Positions 33,834 to 41,729 of a stretch of DNA of 64,000 nt are shown here, one piece after another. How positions within the stretch are numbered: the first letter of the stretch is position 1; each line of letters opens with the position of its first letter. The DNA is from Streptomyces sp. MMBL 11-1 (GTDB lineage: Bacteria; Actinomycetota; Actinomycetes; Streptomycetales; Streptomycetaceae), in the NCBI RefSeq assembly GCF_028622875.1, contig NZ_CP117709.1, forward strand, positions 7,257,001 to 7,321,000, given 5' to 3'. The notes below the pieces were generated by a model. It had not been told where the DNA came from, did no database searches, and saw nothing but the letters and a program-made list of their open reading frames with translations. Made by a program: the position numbers and the translations under genes.

Positions 33834-34757
33834 TCAGGGCTCCAGCAGCGGAAGCACACGCCCGGGTGGGCTCGGCACCACGAGACCACCCGGCGGCGTG
33901 CCCGCGCCCGGAGGATGTCCTGCCGGTATCCGTTCCAGGACACCGCCCGCGAAGACGTCGTACAGCGGCAGCGACTCCAGATGCACATAACCGATGTGGC
34001 AGTCGCACACCGCGAGCGGACAGGCCCGCGGGCCGAGCGCCCGGCGGTAGCTGCCGTCGTAGAGGTTGCCCAGCTCCGCCTTGACGAAGTGACAGCGCCG
34101 CACCGTGCCGTCGCCGTCCACCGAGATCACCGACTCGCCCGTCCGGCAGGGCAGCCCCGCCGAACGGTGCGGATCACGGCTGTAGGGGAACAGCGGATCA
34201 AGCTCCGTCCACCGCGCCGCCTCCTCGTCGGTGTAGGTGTGCCCCTCGGCGGCGTTCACCCAGAGATAGACCTCGTCCGGCAGCGCCGCCCGCAGCCGCC
34301 GCGCCTCCTCCAGATGGGCGTCGAAACCCACCACCCCCACGCTGTAGCGGATCCCGAGCCCCGACAGCTCCCGGCACCGGCCGAGGAACCGCTCGTACGG
34401 TGTCTGCCCCGGGTGGTAGGTGCACCAGAGCGCGATCCGCTCCGGATCCGCGTCCGCCAGCCAGCCGGTGCGGCAGCTCAGGTTCGTCTGGATCGCCACC
34501 CGCCCGATGTTCGGCAGCCGCGACAGCTCGGTCAGCGCCCGCCGGTACCAGGAGCGCACCAGCCCTTCGCCCCACGGCGTGAACAGCACGGACAGCCGGT
34601 CGCCGGTCCGCGCCGCCGCCCAGCCGGTGAACCGCTCCAGCGCCTCGCGGTCCGCCGTCAGCTGCGCGCGACTGTCCCGCCGTTTGGCGAACGGGCAGTA
34701 CGGACAGTCGTAGTCGCAGGAGGCGAGCGGGCCCCGGTAGAGAATCGTCAGGTCCAC
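33834..34757 (-). CDS. STM4011 family radical SAM protein
   Basis: A 307-aa radical SAM enzyme: C14-x3-C18-x2-C21 in SCDYDCPYCPFAKR binds the SAM cluster. The C-terminal third holds more cysteines in a SPASM-like layout (LPCRTGESVISVDGDG, VRRCHFVKAELGNLYDGS, RACPLAVCDCHIG). This suggests auxiliary 4Fe-4S clusters as in peptide-modifying enzymes. Reaction unknown. It is the last gene of the five-family cassette, 7 bp after the STM4012 gene. Start GTG 34757. Confidence 0.88.
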   Translation of the reverse strand: MDLTILYRGPLASCDYDCPYCPFAKRRDSRAQLTADREALERFTGWAAARTGDRLSVLFTPWGEGLVRSWYRRALTELSRLPNIGRVAIQTNLSCRTGWLADADPERIALWCTYHPGQTPYERFLGRCRELSGLGIRYSVGVVGFDAHLEEARRLRAALPDEVYLWVNAAEGHTYTDEEAARWTELDPLFPYSRDPHRSAGLPCRTGESVISVDGDGTVRRCHFVKAELGNLYDGSYRRALGPRACPLAVCDCHIGYVHLESLPLYDVFAGGVLERIPAGHPPGAGTPPGGLVVPSPPGRVLPLLEP

Positions 34758-34764
34758 GGCCCGG

Positions 34765-36150
34765 TCACTTCCGTTCGTACGCGGCCATCGCGGCCCGCAC
34801 CCCGGGGGAGAACAGCGCCGGACCCAGCGCGTCGGAGTGGGCGAGACCTCGCGGGGAGAGACGCAGCAGCCCCTCGGGCGCCGATGGGTCCAGCCACCCC
34901 CGGGCCGCGAACCCCGCCAGTTCGACCGGGAAGTCCGCGTCCGGATCCGTACCGAACCGGGCCCGGTAATCCGCGACCGGCAGCCCTGCCGCCTGGAGCA
35001 GCGACTGCAGCAGATGCCTCCGTCGCGCCTCGTCGGCGTCGACGTACCGGCCGACCTCGGCCCGGGAGAAGTCCTCGGTGGCGGCGAAGCGGTCGATGAT
35101 CGACCGGATCTCCCGCATGTCCACCGCGTAGTCGAAGGAGTAGTGCAGGGCCGCCGTGTACGAACGGGCCCCGCAGCCCAGGCCGATCATGCCGTCGGTC
35201 TGACAGGCGTAGTCCTCGGGCCCCTCCTGCTCCCGCGGGGCACCGGCCCGCCGGAACATCCGCATCGACACCTGCTCGTAGCCGTGCGCCCGCAGATGGT
35301 CCCGCCCCACCGCGTACAGCCGCAGCCGCTGCTCGTCCCAGGCGGTCTCCGCCTCCGCCTCCGCCTCGGCGCCGGCCGCCGGACCCAGCCGGTGCAGACC
35401 CGTGAGCGGGCGGACGTACAGCGGATACAGATACAGCTCCTCCGGCCGCCAGGCCAGCGCCGCGTCCAGGGAGGCGAGCCAGCTGCGCTCGGTCTGCCCG
35501 TCGATGCCGTAGATCAGGTCGATGTTCAGCACCGGGATGGCCGCCTCGCGGATCCGGCCGAGCGCCGCCTCCACATCGGCGCGGCGCTGCGGGCGCACGG
35601 CCGCCCGTGCCTCCTCGTCCACGAAACTCTGCACACCGATGCTGATCCTCGTCGTGCCCCGGTCGGCCAGCACCGACAGCCGGTCCGCCGTCGCCGTCGA
35701 GGGGGACGTCTCCACCGACAGCGGCACCGAGCGCAGTCCGGCGCCCATCCGCTTCTCCGCTATGTCGCAGAGCCGCTCCAGCTCCCCGGCGGTCAGGAAC
35801 GTCGGCGTGCCCCCGCCGAACGCCGCCGCGGCGAACCGCACCGGCCCCTCGTCGCCCAGCGCGTCCCGTACGGACACGGCCTGCCGCTCCAACGCGTCCA
35901 GGTAACGCGTCGTCAGCTCCTCGGGCGCGCCGATCCGGGTGAACAGGTTGCAGAAGCCGCAGCGGACCTCGCAGAAGGGTATGTGGAGATAGAGGGAGAG
36001 CGCGTCCTTCGGCTCCGCCGCCCACAGCGCGCGCAGCGACGGGCGGTCCTCCAGCGGCCGGTAGGCCGTCTTGTGCGGATAGGCGTAGACGTAACTCTCG
36101 TACGGGCGGACGGCGGGGAGCCCGGCGGCGGCTTCGGTGGTGGTGGTCAT
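34765..36150 (-). CDS. STM4012 family HemN-like radical SAM protein
   Basis: A 461-aa protein with the coproporphyrinogen dehydrogenase (HemN) fold. SLYLHIPFCEVRCGFCNLF carries the C-x3-C-x2-C cluster ligands. AFGGGTPTFLTAGELERL, TRISIGVQSFVDEEARA and NIDLIYGIDGQTERSW are standard HemN-family blocks, and a HemN C-terminal winged domain is present (GLGCGARSYTAA...). It is not the housekeeping haem enzyme by context. HemN-like proteins also act as methylases, cyclopropanases or haem chaperones. Overlaps the STM4013 gene as ATGA, so it is tightly coupled. Confidence 0.88.
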   Translation of the reverse strand: MTTTTEAAAGLPAVRPYESYVYAYPHKTAYRPLEDRPSLRALWAAEPKDALSLYLHIPFCEVRCGFCNLFTRIGAPEELTTRYLDALERQAVSVRDALGDEGPVRFAAAAFGGGTPTFLTAGELERLCDIAEKRMGAGLRSVPLSVETSPSTATADRLSVLADRGTTRISIGVQSFVDEEARAAVRPQRRADVEAALGRIREAAIPVLNIDLIYGIDGQTERSWLASLDAALAWRPEELYLYPLYVRPLTGLHRLGPAAGAEAEAEAETAWDEQRLRLYAVGRDHLRAHGYEQVSMRMFRRAGAPREQEGPEDYACQTDGMIGLGCGARSYTAALHYSFDYAVDMREIRSIIDRFAATEDFSRAEVGRYVDADEARRRHLLQSLLQAAGLPVADYRARFGTDPDADFPVELAGFAARGWLDPSAPEGLLRLSPRGLAHSDALGPALFSPGVRAAMAAYERK

Positions 36151-37067
36151 CGGGCGGCCCCCGGGTCGAGCGGTGCGAGAGGTGCGAGCGGTTCGGCGGC
36201 GTCGAGTGGTTCGAGGACGAAATGGGCGTACGGGACGGTCCAGACGGCCGGGTGGCCGAGCCGGTGACCGGTGTAGCCGTCGTCGCCGTAGGCGGTCCCG
36301 TGGTCGGAGCAGACGATGGCGAAGCACCGGCGGCGGCTGCTCGCCGCGGCGAAGAGGCGGCCGATGTGCCGGTCCACATACTCCAGGGCCGCCGCGTGCG
36401 TGGCCCGGGAGTCGCCCGCCTCACGGGTCGCCCCGGGAAGGTGGAACCAGTTCGGCTGGTGCAGCGCGGACACGTTGACGAAGAGGAACAGCCGCTGCTC
36501 CCGGGGGAGCGCCGCGACGACCTCCTCCGCCCTGGCCACCTGCTCCTCGAACGAGGTGGGCGAGGCGACGCCGAAGCCGGGCTCCCAGTGGCTCTCCTGG
36601 AACATCCCGGGCAGCACCGAACCGAGCGGCCCCTGACGGTTGAAGAACCCGACCCCGCCGACGCACACCGTGCGATAGCCCTCGGCGGCCAGCCCCGACA
36701 CCAGATCCGGAGTGTCGAACACGAACGTGCCCTCCGCCGTCGTCTCACTGCCCGCGAACCGTGCCGCGAACAGCCGGGGATGCGGCCCCGGGGAGGCGGG
36801 CGTCGGCAGGAACCCGGCGAACATCGCCTGGTGCGAGGCGTAGGTGAAGCTGCCCGGGGCGTGCCGCTCCTCCCAGACACCGCCGGGCAGATGCCGGGCG
36901 AGGTTCGGGATGCGCCCGGCGGCCGCCAGCTCGACGGCGACGTCGTGGCGCAGCGTGTCCAGGGTGACCAGCAGCAGATCGTGGCTGCCCACGACCTCGC
37001 TCATGTCGGGCCGGCCGGCCCCGCCGGGCGGCCGGGACGTGTCGGGGTCAGGAAGGGGTGAGGGCAC
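36147..37067 (-). CDS. STM4013 family (SEN3800-like) alkaline-phosphatase-superfamily hydrolase
   Basis: A 306-aa sulfatase/phosphodiesterase-fold protein. LLLVTLDTLRHDVAVE supplies the first metal Asp, APGSFTYASHQAMFAGFLP the nucleophile region, and VCSDHGTAYGDDGYTGHRLGH the second metal-binding cluster. No signal peptide, so it acts inside the cell, unlike most sulfatases. It may hydrolyse a phospho- or sulfo-ester made in the same pathway. GTG 37067 (AAGGA upstream, 20-bp overlap with the STM4014 gene) is my start; ATG 37004 is possible. Confidence 0.85.
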   Translation of the reverse strand: MPSPLPDPDTSRPPGGAGRPDMSEVVGSHDLLLVTLDTLRHDVAVELAAAGRIPNLARHLPGGVWEERHAPGSFTYASHQAMFAGFLPTPASPGPHPRLFAARFAGSETTAEGTFVFDTPDLVSGLAAEGYRTVCVGGVGFFNRQGPLGSVLPGMFQESHWEPGFGVASPTSFEEQVARAEEVVAALPREQRLFLFVNVSALHQPNWFHLPGATREAGDSRATHAAALEYVDRHIGRLFAAASSRRRCFAIVCSDHGTAYGDDGYTGHRLGHPAVWTVPYAHFVLEPLDAAEPLAPLAPLDPGAAR

Positions 37068-38205
37068 GGTGGTTCCTTGCTCGGTCCAGTACGGCGGCGA
37101 CCTGCGCCGCATAGGTGTTCAGGCCCTCGGCGCCGCTGCCCGGCAGACCGGTCAGTCCGGGCAGCAGATCGCCGAAGGCGTTGACCTCCCCGACGGCGAA
37201 GCGCCGCCAGCCGGCCGTCGGCAGGAGGTCGACGCCCACGCAGGGCGTCCCGGGGAAGCAGGCCGCCGCCCGCTCGCACATCGTCAGTGCCTCGCGCCAG
37301 CAGCCGCCGGCCGCCGCCACGGCGGCCCGGGCCTCGTCGAGGTCGCCGCGCGCGCCGCCGAGATGCAGATTGGTCATGGGGCTCGTGCTCGTCCGCACCA
37401 CGGCGTGCGTCGCCCGGCCGCCGACCACCACGATCCGCAGATCCGCGGCCCGCCCCCGCTGGGACGCCTTCGGCAGCCAGCGCTCTATGTGCAGCCCGTC
37501 CGGGGCCAGCGCGTCCACGACCGCGCCGACCTCCGCCTCCGAGGTGTAGCGCCGCACCCGGAGCGAGTTGAACAGCCGCCCCGACGCGTCCCGCTCCACC
37601 GAGGTGCTCGCCCGGACCCGGCCGGGCCCCGCCGTCTCCACCGCCAGCACCCCGGAGGCCGAGGAGCCGTGCGCGAGCTTCACGAACGCCCGGGGCATCC
37701 GGTGTTCGCGCAGCGACTCCCGTACGTCGGACCAGCCGCGCACCGGGGCCGCCCCCGGGCCCGATGTCGGCGAGGCGGGCACGGGGACCCCCGCGCGGTC
37801 GAGCAGCCCGTGGCACAGCCGCTTGTCGAAGAGCACGGCGATGTCACCGGGGGAGCCCAGCACCTCGGCGCCCGCGGCGGAGGCCGCGCCCGCCACCGCC
37901 CGCACGGCCGCGGTGAAGCGCGCGTACCACCGGGCCGAACCCTCCACCCGGGTCGGGTCGTCGACTCCGCGGAGCAGCCGCTCCACCTCGGCGTCCTCAC
38001 CGGGCGAATCGATCCGGACGCTCTCGCCCGCCGCGAACACCGCCTGGCCGCGCAGCACCTGGAGCCAGGGCACCACCCGGACCGCCGGCAGCCCGGCGGA
38101 GCGCACGGCCTCCTCGAAGAAGGCGACCCGGCGGTTGTCCGGATTGCCGACGACCACGAAGCGCGGCGCCGGGCCGTCCTTGCCGCTACTCACTGACCGC
38201 GACAT
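37048..38205 (-). CDS. STM4014 family ATP-grasp-like protein
   Basis: A 385-aa protein. The N-terminal part (FVVVGNPDNRRVAFFEEAVR) resembles a Rossmann-like pre-ATP-grasp domain. It is followed by ATP-grasp features: VLFDKRLCHGLLDRAGVPVP, the lysine strand PRAFVKLAHGSSASGV and a metal-binding end VGVDLLP...FAVGEVNAFGDLLPGL. ATP-grasp ligases join a carboxylate to an amine or thiol via acyl-phosphate. In this operon a carboxyl terminus is an obvious candidate substrate. ATG 38205 overlaps the stop of the upstream repeat-protein gene by 20 bp. Confidence 0.82.
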   Translation of the reverse strand: MSRSVSSGKDGPAPRFVVVGNPDNRRVAFFEEAVRSAGLPAVRVVPWLQVLRGQAVFAAGESVRIDSPGEDAEVERLLRGVDDPTRVEGSARWYARFTAAVRAVAGAASAAGAEVLGSPGDIAVLFDKRLCHGLLDRAGVPVPASPTSGPGAAPVRGWSDVRESLREHRMPRAFVKLAHGSSASGVLAVETAGPGRVRASTSVERDASGRLFNSLRVRRYTSEAEVGAVVDALAPDGLHIERWLPKASQRGRAADLRIVVVGGRATHAVVRTSTSPMTNLHLGGARGDLDEARAAVAAAGGCWREALTMCERAAACFPGTPCVGVDLLPTAGWRRFAVGEVNAFGDLLPGLTGLPGSGAEGLNTYAAQVAAVLDRARNHRALTPS

Positions 38206-39145
38206 AGCGTTCCGGTTCGTCGTCCTCGTCGTCCGGGTCCGCGTAGTCGTCCTCGGCCTCGCCCGCCTCGACGACGGCCGGGGCGCACGCGGCCCGCACA
38301 CGGTCCAGCACCGGCTCGGTGAGGTAGTGGTGGCGCAGGTCCAGCGTGGACAGATGGCTCAGGGGCTGCCCGTTGAGCAGGGCCTCGCCGCCCGTGTCGC
38401 TCAGGGTGCCCATCGACAGCGCCAGGGTCTCCAACTGGGCGACCACGGGCGCGGAACCGACCGCGGCGGCGATCTCGTCCTGGATCTCGCTGTTCTGCAG
38501 CCCCAGGTGGCGCAGCCGGGGGAACACGCCGCCCGACAGGATCGGCCCGATGTCGTCGACGGTGGCGTCGCCGCCGTACCACGAGCTGCCGAACCACAGG
38601 TCCAGCCGCTCCAGCGCGGGCAGTTCGCTCGCGGCGACCGCCCGCACCAGCCCGCCGGGCAGGCCGCCGGATTCGAAGCGCAGCGACTTCAGCGCCGTAT
38701 GGCGCAGCGGGCGCAGCCCCAGCCCCTCCCGGCCGCAGCCACGCACGCCGAACTCCTCCAGCTGCGGCAGCGCTTCGAGCACCGGGGTGATGTCGCACAT
38801 CCGCAGCCAGGAAACCTCGCACTCCTCGCCCACCACATCGGCGAGGAAGAGCCCGCGCAGGGCCGGGAAGCGGTCCGCGTGGGCGACGATCAGCTCCATC
38901 ACCGGGGCGAACGGCGTGTACTCGCCGCTCCACCAGGGGCCGAGGACGAGCGCCCGGACCCGGGCCGTGTCCACCGTGTCCAGGAACTCCTGCCACCAGC
39001 CGGCGAAGTCCCTGCCCTCCTCGTTTTCGCACTCCAGCCGCCAGGCCACGCTGTCGGCGGCGGGCAGGAACCCGGACGACGGCGCCGGGGTGTGGACCGG
39101 CAGCCCGTGGAAGCGGTCGAGATGCTGGATACCGAGATACGTCAT
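38186..39145 (-). CDS. STM4015 family leucine-rich-repeat protein, copy A
   Basis: A 319-aa protein with no signal peptide. Leucine-rich repeats occupy about residues 85-280 (for example LPALERLDLWFG, FPRLRHLGLQNSEIQDEIA, AQLETLALSMGTLSDTGGEALL, LSTLDLRHHYLTE). An Asp/Glu-rich linker follows (about residues 290-311) and then the terminal octapeptide ERYVAVSE. The C-terminal RYxAVSE is shared with copy B although the preceding linker is not. It probably presents this tail to the cassette enzymes or serves as a binding scaffold. Confidence 0.85.
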   Translation of the reverse strand: MTYLGIQHLDRFHGLPVHTPAPSSGFLPAADSVAWRLECENEEGRDFAGWWQEFLDTVDTARVRALVLGPWWSGEYTPFAPVMELIVAHADRFPALRGLFLADVVGEECEVSWLRMCDITPVLEALPQLEEFGVRGCGREGLGLRPLRHTALKSLRFESGGLPGGLVRAVAASELPALERLDLWFGSSWYGGDATVDDIGPILSGGVFPRLRHLGLQNSEIQDEIAAAVGSAPVVAQLETLALSMGTLSDTGGEALLNGQPLSHLSTLDLRHHYLTEPVLDRVRAACAPAVVEAGEAEDDYADPDDEDDEPERYVAVSE

Positions 39146-39150
39146 GACAC

Positions 39151-40101
39151 CTACTCCGAGACGGCGGTGTAGCGGCCCTCGGCGCCCCGGTCGCCCCAGG
39201 GCTCGCACGGCTCGGAGAGATCGACCCGCACCCCGTGCGGCTCCAGGGCCGAACGCACCCGCTCCGCCATCGCGTCGGTGAGGAAGTGGTGGTGGAGATC
39301 GAGGAGTTCCAGGTGGGTCAGCGGCTGCCCTTCGAGGAGGGCGGCCGCCCCTTCGTCGCCCAGTGTCCCGTTCGACAGGTCGAGAGCCCGAAGCTGGGCG
39401 ACGACCGGAGCCGAGGCGATGGCCGCGGCGATCTCGTTCTGGATCTCACTGTTGCGCAGGCCCAGGTGGATCAGCCGGGGGAAACGGGTGCCGGAAAGCA
39501 GCGGAGCGAGGTCGGCGACGCCGGTGTTCCCCTCGTAGGCGGAGACTCCGAGCCAGAGGTCCAGCCGCTCCAGCGCGGGCAGTTCGCTGTCCAGCACCCC
39601 GCGCACCACCTCCACGGGCAGTCCGCCCGCCTGGACGGTCAGCGACCGCAGCCGCTCGTGCTTCGTCGGCGGGAACACCAGCTCGGAGCCGCCGCGCACG
39701 CCGAGCTCCGTCAGGGCGGGGAAGGCGGTCAGCAGCGCCGTCACGTCCGACTGCTCGATCCAGGTGATCTCGGCCTGCTCCGCCTCCAGGTCACCGACGA
39801 ACACCGACTCCAGCGAGGTCAGCCGGTCGGCGGCGGCGATCACCAGGTTGATCGGCATGGAGGAGTTCTCGTCGTACGCCTCGCCCCACTGGCCGATGAT
39901 CAGGGCCCGGACACCGGCCGGATCGACCTGGTCCAGGAAGTCGGCGAACTCCTCCTCCCAGGGCCGGTCGTCGTCGTACGGGTCGACGGAGACACGCCAG
40001 GCCACGGCGTCCGCGGCGGGCCGGGAGCCCTCGTCGGTCGTGTGCTGGAAGTCGACGGCCGGAAGGCCGCCGAACTCGTGCAGATGCTGCGCACCGTACA
40101 T
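39151..40101 (-). CDS. STM4015 family leucine-rich-repeat protein, copy B
   Basis: A 316-aa paralogue of copy A, beginning YGAQHLHEFGGLPAVDF. Repeats include FPALTELGVRGG, LPALERLDLWLGVSAYEG, FPRLIHLGLRNSEIQNEIA and LELLDLHHHFLTDAM. Its linker is short and Gly/Pro-rich, but it ends GRYTAVSE like copy A. It is the first gene of the leftward operon: AGGAG lies 9 nt before ATG 40101. The stop is 5 bp from the copy A start. Confidence 0.85.
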   Translation of the reverse strand: MYGAQHLHEFGGLPAVDFQHTTDEGSRPAADAVAWRVSVDPYDDDRPWEEEFADFLDQVDPAGVRALIIGQWGEAYDENSSMPINLVIAAADRLTSLESVFVGDLEAEQAEITWIEQSDVTALLTAFPALTELGVRGGSELVFPPTKHERLRSLTVQAGGLPVEVVRGVLDSELPALERLDLWLGVSAYEGNTGVADLAPLLSGTRFPRLIHLGLRNSEIQNEIAAAIASAPVVAQLRALDLSNGTLGDEGAAALLEGQPLTHLELLDLHHHFLTDAMAERVRSALEPHGVRVDLSEPCEPWGDRGAEGRYTAVSE

Positions 40102-40315: not shown

Positions 40316-40642
40316 GTGTACCGGCAGGGCGATGTACTGATCATGGAGCTGGAGGAGTCGGCTGTGCCCGCCCCCTTCCTGGAGGCCCCGGGCGAACTGC
40401 GCGACGGGCGGGGGAGGCTGGTGCTCGCGCTGGGAGAGGTCACCGGACACGCCCACGCCGTGCAGGGCCCCGGCCGGCTGATCCGGGAAGCGGGCCGGTT
40501 CGGTCCGATGCTGCTCCATCTCCCCGAGGGCGGGCGGGTGGTGCACGAGGAGCACGCGGCGATCCCGCTCCCCAAGGGCTGGTTCCGCGTCGTGCGGCAG
40601 CGGGAGTACGCACCCGGCGCGATCCGCGTCGTGGCGGACTGA
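40316..40642 (+). CDS. Conserved 108-residue protein with GEVTGHAH motif
   Basis: A 108-aa soluble protein starting YRQGDVLIMELEE. It contains LALGEVTGHAHAV, LLHLPEGGRVVHEEHAAIPLPKGWFRVVRQREY and ends AIRVVAD. The His pairs (GHAH, HEEH) look like a metal site in a small beta-barrel. I recognise it as a recurrent unnamed protein next to DUF6745 genes, but no function is known to me. Start GTG 40316 with GGGGAGA at good spacing. Confidence 0.75.
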   Translation: MYRQGDVLIMELEESAVPAPFLEAPGELRDGRGRLVLALGEVTGHAHAVQGPGRLIREAGRFGPMLLHLPEGGRVVHEEHAAIPLPKGWFRVVRQREYAPGAIRVVAD

Positions 40643-40669
40643 CCGCTCCGCGATGCCGGAGCGAACACG

Positions 40670-40712
40670 GCTTTCCAGAACGAGCACAGCCATCCAGAAC
40701 GAGCACAGCAGG
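40670..40712. repeat. Two-copy direct repeat in the gap before the DUF6745 gene
   Basis: TCCAGAACGAGCACAGC occurs at 40674-40690 and 40693-40709 (19-bp period), just upstream of the DUF6745 ribosome-binding site. It may be a small duplication without function. Confidence 0.8.
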
Positions 40713-40727
40713 GGACGGGGACAACCG

Positions 40728-41729
40728 ATGCAGAACGTGGATTCCTGGCGGAGCGTGGCGGCGGCGACCGGCCGGGCGGACCGGGCGGCGGCCGAGGCCG
40801 GGGTGCGGCGTGCCTATCGCACCGCCGGCCTGGCCGAGCCCGACCGGATCATCTGGGCCGCATCGCCCCGGGCCGCCGTCGAAACGGTGGAGAAGCTGGT
40901 CGACGCCGGCCGGTCGGTGCGCGAGGAGGTCCGCACCCGCCCGTGGGCCGAGGAACGCCGCCGGATGCACGACGAGCTGGGCCCGGCGGGCTGGTCGGCG
41001 CTCTGGTCCGCCACCGGAGCCCAGCTGTGGGAGACCACGGGCGCGCTCGCCGAGCGCATACGGACCGGTGTCGTCGCCGACCTGGCCCCCCGGCCCGAGG
41101 ACGGGACGGCCGTGCGGCTGGTGCTCCTGGACGCCGTGCTCGGCCAGCACGACGCCGCCTGGCTCGCCGCCTTCGACGGGCGGGGCGACCGGCTGGCGGG
41201 CCTCGCGGAGGTGGCCCGCAGCGCCGGCTGGTGGTGGCCCTACGAGCACGCCGCGGTCATCAGTGAGCGGCCCGACGTCCTCCACCGCGACGAGGCGGGC
41301 CGGCTCGACCACGGCGAGGGACCGGCCCTCGCCTACGGGGACGGGTTCGCCCTCCACGCCTGGCGCGGCATGCCTGTTCCCGCCGCGTTCCTGGCCGAGC
41401 TGTCCTCCCTCACGCCCGAGCGGATCCGCGCCGAGGAGAACGCGGAGCTGCGCCGCGTGATGCTGGAGTTCTACGGCTACGACCGGTATCTCACGGAGTC
41501 GGGCGCCGAGCCCGTCCACCGTGACGGGACGGGCGTCCTCTGGCGCATCGCCCTCGACGGGGACGAGGACGTGGTGATGGTCGAGGTGGTCAACTCCACC
41601 CCCGAGCCGGACGGCAGGTACCGCACCTACTGGCTGCGCGTGCCGCCCGCCACCCGGACCGCTCAGGACGGCGTCGCCTGGACGTTCGGACTGGACGGGG
41701 CGGCCTACGCACCGGTGCGCCAGACCTGA
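40728..41729 (+). CDS. DUF6745 domain-containing protein
   Basis: A 333-aa soluble protein. Conserved features seen are RIIWAASPRAAVE, SAGWWWPYEHAAVISERP, the stretch HRDEAGRLDHGEGPALAYGDGFALHAWRG and PERIRAEENAELRRVMLEFYGYDRYL near residue 235-260. No transmembrane segment. DUF6745 proteins are described only by sequence. It forms a two-gene operon with the 108-aa protein. The repeat-protein cassette is transcribed away from the shared promoter region. Confidence 0.8.
   Translation: MQNVDSWRSVAAATGRADRAAAEAGVRRAYRTAGLAEPDRIIWAASPRAAVETVEKLVDAGRSVREEVRTRPWAEERRRMHDELGPAGWSALWSATGAQLWETTGALAERIRTGVVADLAPRPEDGTAVRLVLLDAVLGQHDAAWLAAFDGRGDRLAGLAEVARSAGWWWPYEHAAVISERPDVLHRDEAGRLDHGEGPALAYGDGFALHAWRGMPVPAAFLAELSSLTPERIRAEENAELRRVMLEFYGYDRYLTESGAEPVHRDGTGVLWRIALDGDEDVVMVEVVNSTPEPDGRYRTYWLRVPPATRTAQDGVAWTFGLDGAAYAPVRQT

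Follow-up and report, generated by a model that had tools for sequence, protein, structure and literature searches.

An invariant C-terminal glutamate in STM4015-family repeat proteins of Streptomyces sp. MMBL 11-1 and relatives: a candidate modification site for the ATP-grasp protein STM4014

The STM4011–4015 Operon of Streptomyces sp. MMBL 11-1

The window analysed here is a stretch of 64,000 nucleotides (positions 7,257,001 to 7,321,000 of contig NZ_CP117709.1) from Streptomyces sp. MMBL 11-1. It carries an operon of five adjacent families, STM4011 to STM4015, each over its curated NCBIfam cut-off, and this text concerns the C-terminal tail shared by its two STM4015-family leucine-rich repeat (LRR) proteins, copies A and B, and the possible relation of that tail to STM4014. 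On the minus strand the genes follow each other in the order copy B, copy A, STM4014, STM4013, STM4012, STM4011. STM401x names appear in three Salmonella papers (PMC3844500, PMC2698986, PMC2784778), and a search of the open-access literature found no function for the five families. The operon and its parts are, in window positions:

39151..40101, minus strand: copy B, STM4015-family LRR protein, 316 amino acids (MYGAQHL...), end RYTAVSE; NF038076 384.7 bits, cut-off 275; structure modelled
39175..39222, minus strand: Gly/Pro-containing linker of copy B (limits approximate)
39154..39174, minus strand: tail of copy B, codons CGC TAC ACC GCC GTC TCG GAG
38186..39145, minus strand: copy A, STM4015-family LRR protein, 319 amino acids, end RYVAVSE; NF038076 371.1 bits, cut-off 275
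38210..38266, minus strand: Asp/Glu-rich linker of copy A (limits approximate)
38189..38209, minus strand: tail of copy A, codons CGC TAT GTC GCG GTC AGT GAG
37048..38205, minus strand: STM4014, predicted ATP-grasp ligase; NF038074 456 bits, cut-off 175; fold nearest ArgX/LysX/PsnB/RimK
36147..37112, minus strand: STM4013, hydrolase of the alkaline-phosphatase/sulfatase superfamily; NF038075 429 bits, cut-off 250; Pfam Sulfatase
34765..36150, minus strand: STM4012, HemN-like radical SAM protein; NF006067 639 bits, cut-off 380
33834..34757, minus strand: STM4011, radical SAM protein; NF038073 416 bits, cut-off 200

The true start of STM4013 may lie further downstream. STM4011 also matches Pfam Radical_SAM and SPASM, both under their cut-offs. 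Copies A and B both exceed the whole-protein score of 275 bits that defines STM4015 membership, are 48% identical overall and have their closest relatives in Streptomyces. Structure comparison of the model shows that STM4015 has an LRR fold. A reading of this stretch from its sequence alone (hereafter the sequence-only reading) had stated that the linkers of the two copies are unlike, Asp/Glu-rich in one and Gly/Pro-containing in the other, yet both end in RY-x-AVSE, and this is confirmed by the ends EDDYADPDDEDDEPE-RYVAVSE (copy A) and SEPCEPWGDRGAEG-RYTAVSE (copy B).

Conservation of the C-terminal Tail

The tail is kept far beyond this pair, and its last Glu in several bacterial phyla. All 120 homologues of copy B (best 120 of 2244) end in RYxx[VAI][SA]E, and these are, where named, all Streptomyces proteins bar one from Kitasatospora. 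Homologues of a Motilimonas member (best 120 of 609) span Paenibacillus, cyanobacterial, Chitinophagaceae and Shewanella proteins; one of them is identical to the query and many are close relatives of each other, e.g., 17 with RYPSITE. In this set 120/120 have Glu as the last residue (position -1), 118 have Arg(-7) and 116 have Tyr at position -6, where Phe occurs three times and His once. A third count covers the intact distinct sequences with a score of at least 100 bits from the fetched loci, and Glu is the final residue of all of them (98/98); a frameshifted gene of locus L034 was set aside, one of its two pieces ending in RYVAVDE and the other not in Glu. Among these 98, 64 have Ser at position -2 and the other 34 have G, A, D or T there; Tyr, found at position -6 in 89, gives way to Phe seven times and to Ser and Asn once each, and Arg(-7) is replaced in nine. 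Even deviant tails, such as YMNAMYTE of a Salmonella plasmid copy and RSIAVSE of a Methylobacterium copy, keep the final Glu, and the crystallized Bacteroides fragilis protein 2RA8 has SYPMITE at sequence positions 348-354, followed by a His tag. The Salmonella plasmid tail (L112) is the most deviant of those found.

For 77 hand-picked homologue rows, weighted and with their C-termini in register, the information content is 3.5 bits at -1 (all E), 3.7 at -3, 4.8 at -6 and 4.6 at -7, against 0.3-1.8 bits in the linker region from -9 to -30. The alignment columns overall have a median of 2.1 bits and a 90th percentile of 3.6, so that the body of the protein is middling. This peak behind a poorly conserved linker indicates that the likeness of the tails of copies A and B is no chance, and it bears out the earlier statement that conservation resumes at the free C-terminus. 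As a control, 17 aligned STM4014 proteins have no conserved C-terminal column. Close relatives of STM4014 do have common ends, e.g., those of the window and of locus L010. The sequence-only reading had named a tail limited to the pair as an outcome that would speak against it; instead, Glu is kept throughout all three sets. Judged from these alignments, the hard core of the tag is the terminal Glu together with the exact end of the protein, and Glu is the sole invariant residue of the tail. The consensus can be written approximately as R-[YF]-x-x-[VIL]-[SAGT]-E-COOH, and the linker before it is mostly acidic.

Overlap of the Copy A Tail With the Start of STM4014

The likely ATG start of STM4014 lies at 38205, within the codons for Tyr and Val at the end of copy A (38186-38209); a GTG at 38193 is the other candidate. 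It is conceivable, though very improbable, that the constraint acts on the DNA, with the tail codons being kept because they serve the following gene as its start or ribosome-binding site. Considering the 40 tails for which a script found STM4014 directly behind, an in-frame ATG is present 17 nt before the stop in 32, inside TAT GTC/GTG (T-ATG-TC/TG), and all 32 encode Tyr by TAT, whereas tails that are followed by another tail gene use TAC in 34 of 35 cases and TTC in one. In addition, the end codons of copy B (TCG GAG TAG) sit at the expected Shine-Dalgarno place for copy A. However, in the remaining 8/40 STM4014 starts elsewhere, with the nearest ATG -1 to +36 nt from the stop, and the tail is kept nonetheless (RY or RF...E); it is also present in orphan genes and in phyla that use other codons. 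The overlap, which is real in copy A, accounts for a rare codon there and not for the tail, and as a general cause of the tail it is refuted by the orphan and non-overlapping cases.

STM4014 as a Predicted ATP-Grasp Ligase

The structure model of STM4014 has a mean predicted local distance difference test (pLDDT) score of 91. Its best Foldseek match in the PDB is ArgX with LysW (E 1.2e-13), followed by LysX, PsnB and RimK. A profile of 17 STM4014 sequences searched against PDB sequences gave LysX first (5.5e-05), through two short stretches of which neither is significant alone, in an alignment that covers the DxR...R...TN...GG region; the Vip1 kinase was also found (0.0079). Residues K124, K172, E237, D251, R253, R267, N275, D322, E336 and N338 are invariant in 17/17 aligned proteins (17 of the 18 picked; the protein of locus L036, whose start was not placed, was omitted). 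We take these ten to be the ATP-grasp catalytic and metal-binding set, and with this assignment STM4014 has both the fold and the residues of an ATP-grasp enzyme. The earlier idea of an ATP-grasp-like protein in the operon is thereby strengthened. From the model, STM4014 would work like a RimK/LysX-type ligase, yet by cut-off it is a member of neither family.

How such ligases act on protein ends is known from two systems. LysW has the end EDWGE, and LysX attaches its substrate there, to the gamma-carboxyl of the last Glu; in ArgW, the exchange E54A at the C-terminus causes arginine auxotrophy (PMC10433800). RimK extends the C-terminus of RpsF with Glu (PMC7343187). The LysW/ArgW systems resemble the one described here in combining a protein with a C-terminal Glu and an ATP-grasp ligase; the first fold match of STM4014 is ArgX-LysW, and STM4015 shows the invariant C-terminal Glu expected of a LysW-type carrier. 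LysW differs in being a small zinc protein with the EDWGE end, whereas STM4015 has an LRR fold, about 300 amino acids and another tail, and it was therefore rejected as a LysW. The STM4015 operon differs from LysW pathways also in having radical SAM and hydrolase genes, and its ligase falls far under the LysX cut-off. RimK likewise is an ATP-grasp ligase that acts on a protein C-terminus, and RimK with RpsF is among the fold matches, but its substrate is ribosomal and STM4014 forms a family of its own that fails the RimK cut-off. RimA or RimB was not seen with STM4014.

A third comparison is with graspetides, whose ligases act on side chains within short precursor peptides with a core of Ser/Thr/Lys and Asp/Glu acceptors. 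It would suggest that the whole tail is a core like that of ribosomally synthesized and post-translationally modified peptides, in which the ATP-grasp enzyme forms a side-chain ester or amide and the radical SAM enzymes act on Tyr or Ser. PsnB, a graspetide ligase with bound precursor peptide, is indeed among the top fold matches of STM4014, and two radical SAM genes are present in most fetched loci. Nevertheless, Ser(-2) is G, A, D or T in 34/98 intact sequences and Tyr(-6) is Phe, Ser or Asn in 9/98, the nine loci without Tyr(-6) all have STM4014, STM4013, STM4012 and STM4011 genes (by profile or annotation), and the tail offers no invariant nucleophile as a partner for Glu. In graspetides, moreover, the modified residues lie within a peptide, and here it is the end residue of a folded protein that is invariant. 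We therefore consider a peptide-like core to be hardly probable, and STM4015, an LRR protein of about 300 amino acids with a variable Ser(-2), was rejected as a graspetide precursor. The same counts (Ser in 64/98, Tyr in 89/98) argue against the claim of the sequence-only reading that radical SAM enzymes act on Tyr or Ser of the tail. Its proposal that the repeat proteins are carriers with a modified tail thus holds in part: the ATP-grasp and terminal-Glu part is well motivated, and the part on Tyr and Ser is not upheld.

Operon Layout and Co-occurrence

STM4011–4015 operons are present in several phyla, their genes in other loci having been called by profiles built for this analysis or by annotation; for plasmids, 10 loci of 14 records found were fetched. 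In most fetched loci of operon length the order is STM4015(-STM4015)-STM4014-(HAD)-STM4013-STM4012-STM4011, where HAD stands for a HAD-superfamily hydrolase gene, and two radical SAM genes are the rule. Loci with WGR-LRR proteins are ordered differently (HAD-STM4013-STM4012-STM4011-STM4015-STM4014 in L079; STM4011-STM4015-STM4015-STM4014 in L076). HAD genes lie at L038:10060-10752, L039:10054-10680 and L079:11883-12506, in operons of Motilimonas and two Bacteroidota loci, and none was found by the HAD profile used here in the Streptomyces operons. On the Salmonella plasmid (L112) the STM4015–4011 operon and a Cof-type HAD gene adjoin yihS, alpha-glucosidase, transporter and ompL genes. A few operons appear damaged, either by decay or by assembly error: L033 has STM4014 and STM4012 in pieces, L034 has these two and copy A in pieces, and the Bacteroides finegoldii locus (L113) gave nothing more than fragments of STM4013/STM4012. 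With the STM4014 profile used here, no separate match was obtained in L116, an unannotated locus of Embleya, for which overlapping frames are one possibility.

In the window's phylum, STM4015 and STM4014 exceed their cut-offs in the same 6/396 genomes sampled. In the class of Motilimonas, the same 4/369 genomes have strong STM4015-alignment matches and STM4014 over its cut-off; five of nine genomes with matches, which had weak LRR matches only (19-31 bits), and 99 genomes with only sub-cut-off ATP-grasp matches were left uncounted. In the phylum of UBA4416, two of 296 genomes have strong STM4015 matches, both adjoining STM4014, which was looked at beside the matches only; one of three matches, weak and LRR-only (26 bits), was left uncounted.

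The tail also occurs on WGR-LRR and DNA-ligase-WGR-LRR relatives, some of which are encoded apart from the operon. Genome G161 has a tagged orphan (L072) about 100 kb from its operon. In genome G694, two tagged proteins, one of WGR-LRR type (VYTSVGE) and one of DNA-ligase-OB/WGR/LRR type (AYVSVGE), lie on other contigs than STM4014-STM4011-STM4012; the gene at L077:1790-3799 encodes a DNA-ligase OB, WGR and LRR domain protein with the tail AYVSVGE, its N-terminus cut by the contig end. The tagged proteins of G694 and G963, two of the four genomes from the class of Motilimonas, are WGR-LRR relatives, of which three were scored, all below the STM4015 cut-off, and several WGR-LRR relatives reach 153-273 bits, under 275. 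In these few cases it looks like one enzyme set serves several substrates.

The tail could instead be a C-terminal signal for turnover or localization that is independent of the operon enzymes, as short free C-terminal motifs often serve such purposes. This seems improbable to us: in two sampled groups the genomes with tagged proteins are those with STM4014, and strain MMBL 11-1 shows no other tagged protein beyond chance. In its genome, a loose DNA pattern search for R-[YF]-x-x-[VI]-x-E-stop gave four occurrences, two of them copies A and B, and the reversed pattern gave five. No WGR domain was found in this genome at E 0.001.

Proposed Modification of the Terminal Glutamate

Taken together, the conservation of the tail, its exact placement at the C-terminus, the co-occurrence with STM4014, the tagged proteins that are encoded at a distance from the operon, and the fold predicted for STM4014 together with its conserved residues make the tail a promising modification site, and that STM4014 ligates a group to the last Glu of LRR proteins with the tag is in our judgement an evenly balanced proposition. 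STM4015 proteins, and relatives fused to WGR or DNA-ligase domains, would present a constant C-terminal address tag on a linker, and the tag would be recognized by STM4014. STM4014 would then activate a carboxylate of the invariant last Glu and join an amine-bearing group to it, as LysX and ArgX do on LysW and RimK on ribosomal protein S6. The group may be made or finished by STM4013, STM4012 and STM4011, with the HAD hydrolase of some loci. We infer the entry of the tail into STM4014, the role of Glu as acceptor and the roles of the other operon enzymes.

Several observations weigh against this proposal. Firstly, STM4014 scores far under the RimK NCBIfam cut-off (22.8 vs 143.4 bits) and under that of LysX as well (21.1 vs 275.6 bits), and Vip1/PPIP5K inositol-phosphate kinases appear among its fold matches from rank 14, so that the fold alone leaves its substrate unfixed. 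In LysW pathways a peptidase releases the product, and unlike there, none is annotated in the operons examined. Secondly, operon linkage confounds the co-occurrence of tagged proteins and STM4014, and every group sampled was centred on a known carrier that is itself counted, so one each of the 6, 4 and 2 genomes is not independent. The contig of G694 ends inside STM4012, and an LRR neighbour may be missing or the contigs may truly adjoin. A tagged copy on a Calothrix plasmid (RYCSVAE) has no operon gene within the 10 kb locus fetched. Lastly, the end of copy B is predicted to be ordered. Its model (mean pLDDT 96 without the first three residues) has pLDDT 94 for residues 291-300, 80 for 301-310, where the linker passes into the tail, and 87 for the last residues, 311-313; the model matches 2RA8 up to model residue 313 and chain residue 357.

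An ordered end and a match to 2RA8 up to the last model residue mean that the tail may fold back on its own LRR. The main alternative is an unmodified docking peptide, with the tail folded onto the conserved face of its own LRR or of a partner copy, or bound by an operon enzyme, and the carboxylate as anchor; we regard it as possible but not probable. Apart from the pLDDT values at the end of copy B (80 and 87, next to 94), it is favoured by the tail SYPMITE of 2RA8, which, provided that entry and sequence share one numbering, is resolved (351 of 362 residues), and by conserved residues of the LRR body other than Leu and Gly: W111 and Y186 are invariant in the 77 rows, R133 and W180 present in at least 90%. 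A structural plug should, however, allow Asp, Gln or a short extension at position -1, and none was found among the intact ones of about 340 proteins (overlapping sets). In addition, a His tag follows Glu in 2RA8, so a free carboxylate is not required for order in that structure. Docking would not preclude modification. 2RA8 itself (WGR-LRR protein Q64V53) has a longer N-terminal part than STM4015, taken to be a WGR domain by its likeness to Bacteroidetes relatives, and no paper naming Q64V53 or 2RA8 was found in the open-access literature searched.

Modification of the terminal Glu could belong to a new protein-modification system, in which an ATP-grasp ligase, two radical SAM enzymes and one or two hydrolases build a group on the Glu of any tagged LRR protein, including WGR-LRR and DNA-ligase fusions encoded elsewhere. 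The LRR would provide target specificity and the tag would carry either a peptidyl cofactor or an unfinished product. This wider proposal is tentative and we doubt it more than we believe it. If true, repeat proteins would join small carriers and a ribosomal protein as targets of C-terminal Glu modification. Five families so far named only after Salmonella loci are in any case brought into one testable hypothesis through the invariant Glu and a LysX/RimK-like ligase.

Neighbouring Genes

Two genes lie divergently from the operon:

40316..40642, plus strand: small gene, 108 amino acids, RQGDVL motif, adjoins the DUF6745 gene
40653..41729, plus strand: DUF6745 protein; PF20530 379 bits

A role of the locus in anti-phage defence was considered and rejected, the sole match being a weak one to STM4012. 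Both the DUF6745 protein and the small RQGD-motif protein have distant PHROG relatives of unknown function. The two genes (40316-41729) may be part of the system; next to the operon in three Deinococcus and one Methylobacterium plasmid there is likewise a DUF6745 gene together with a small unnamed one.

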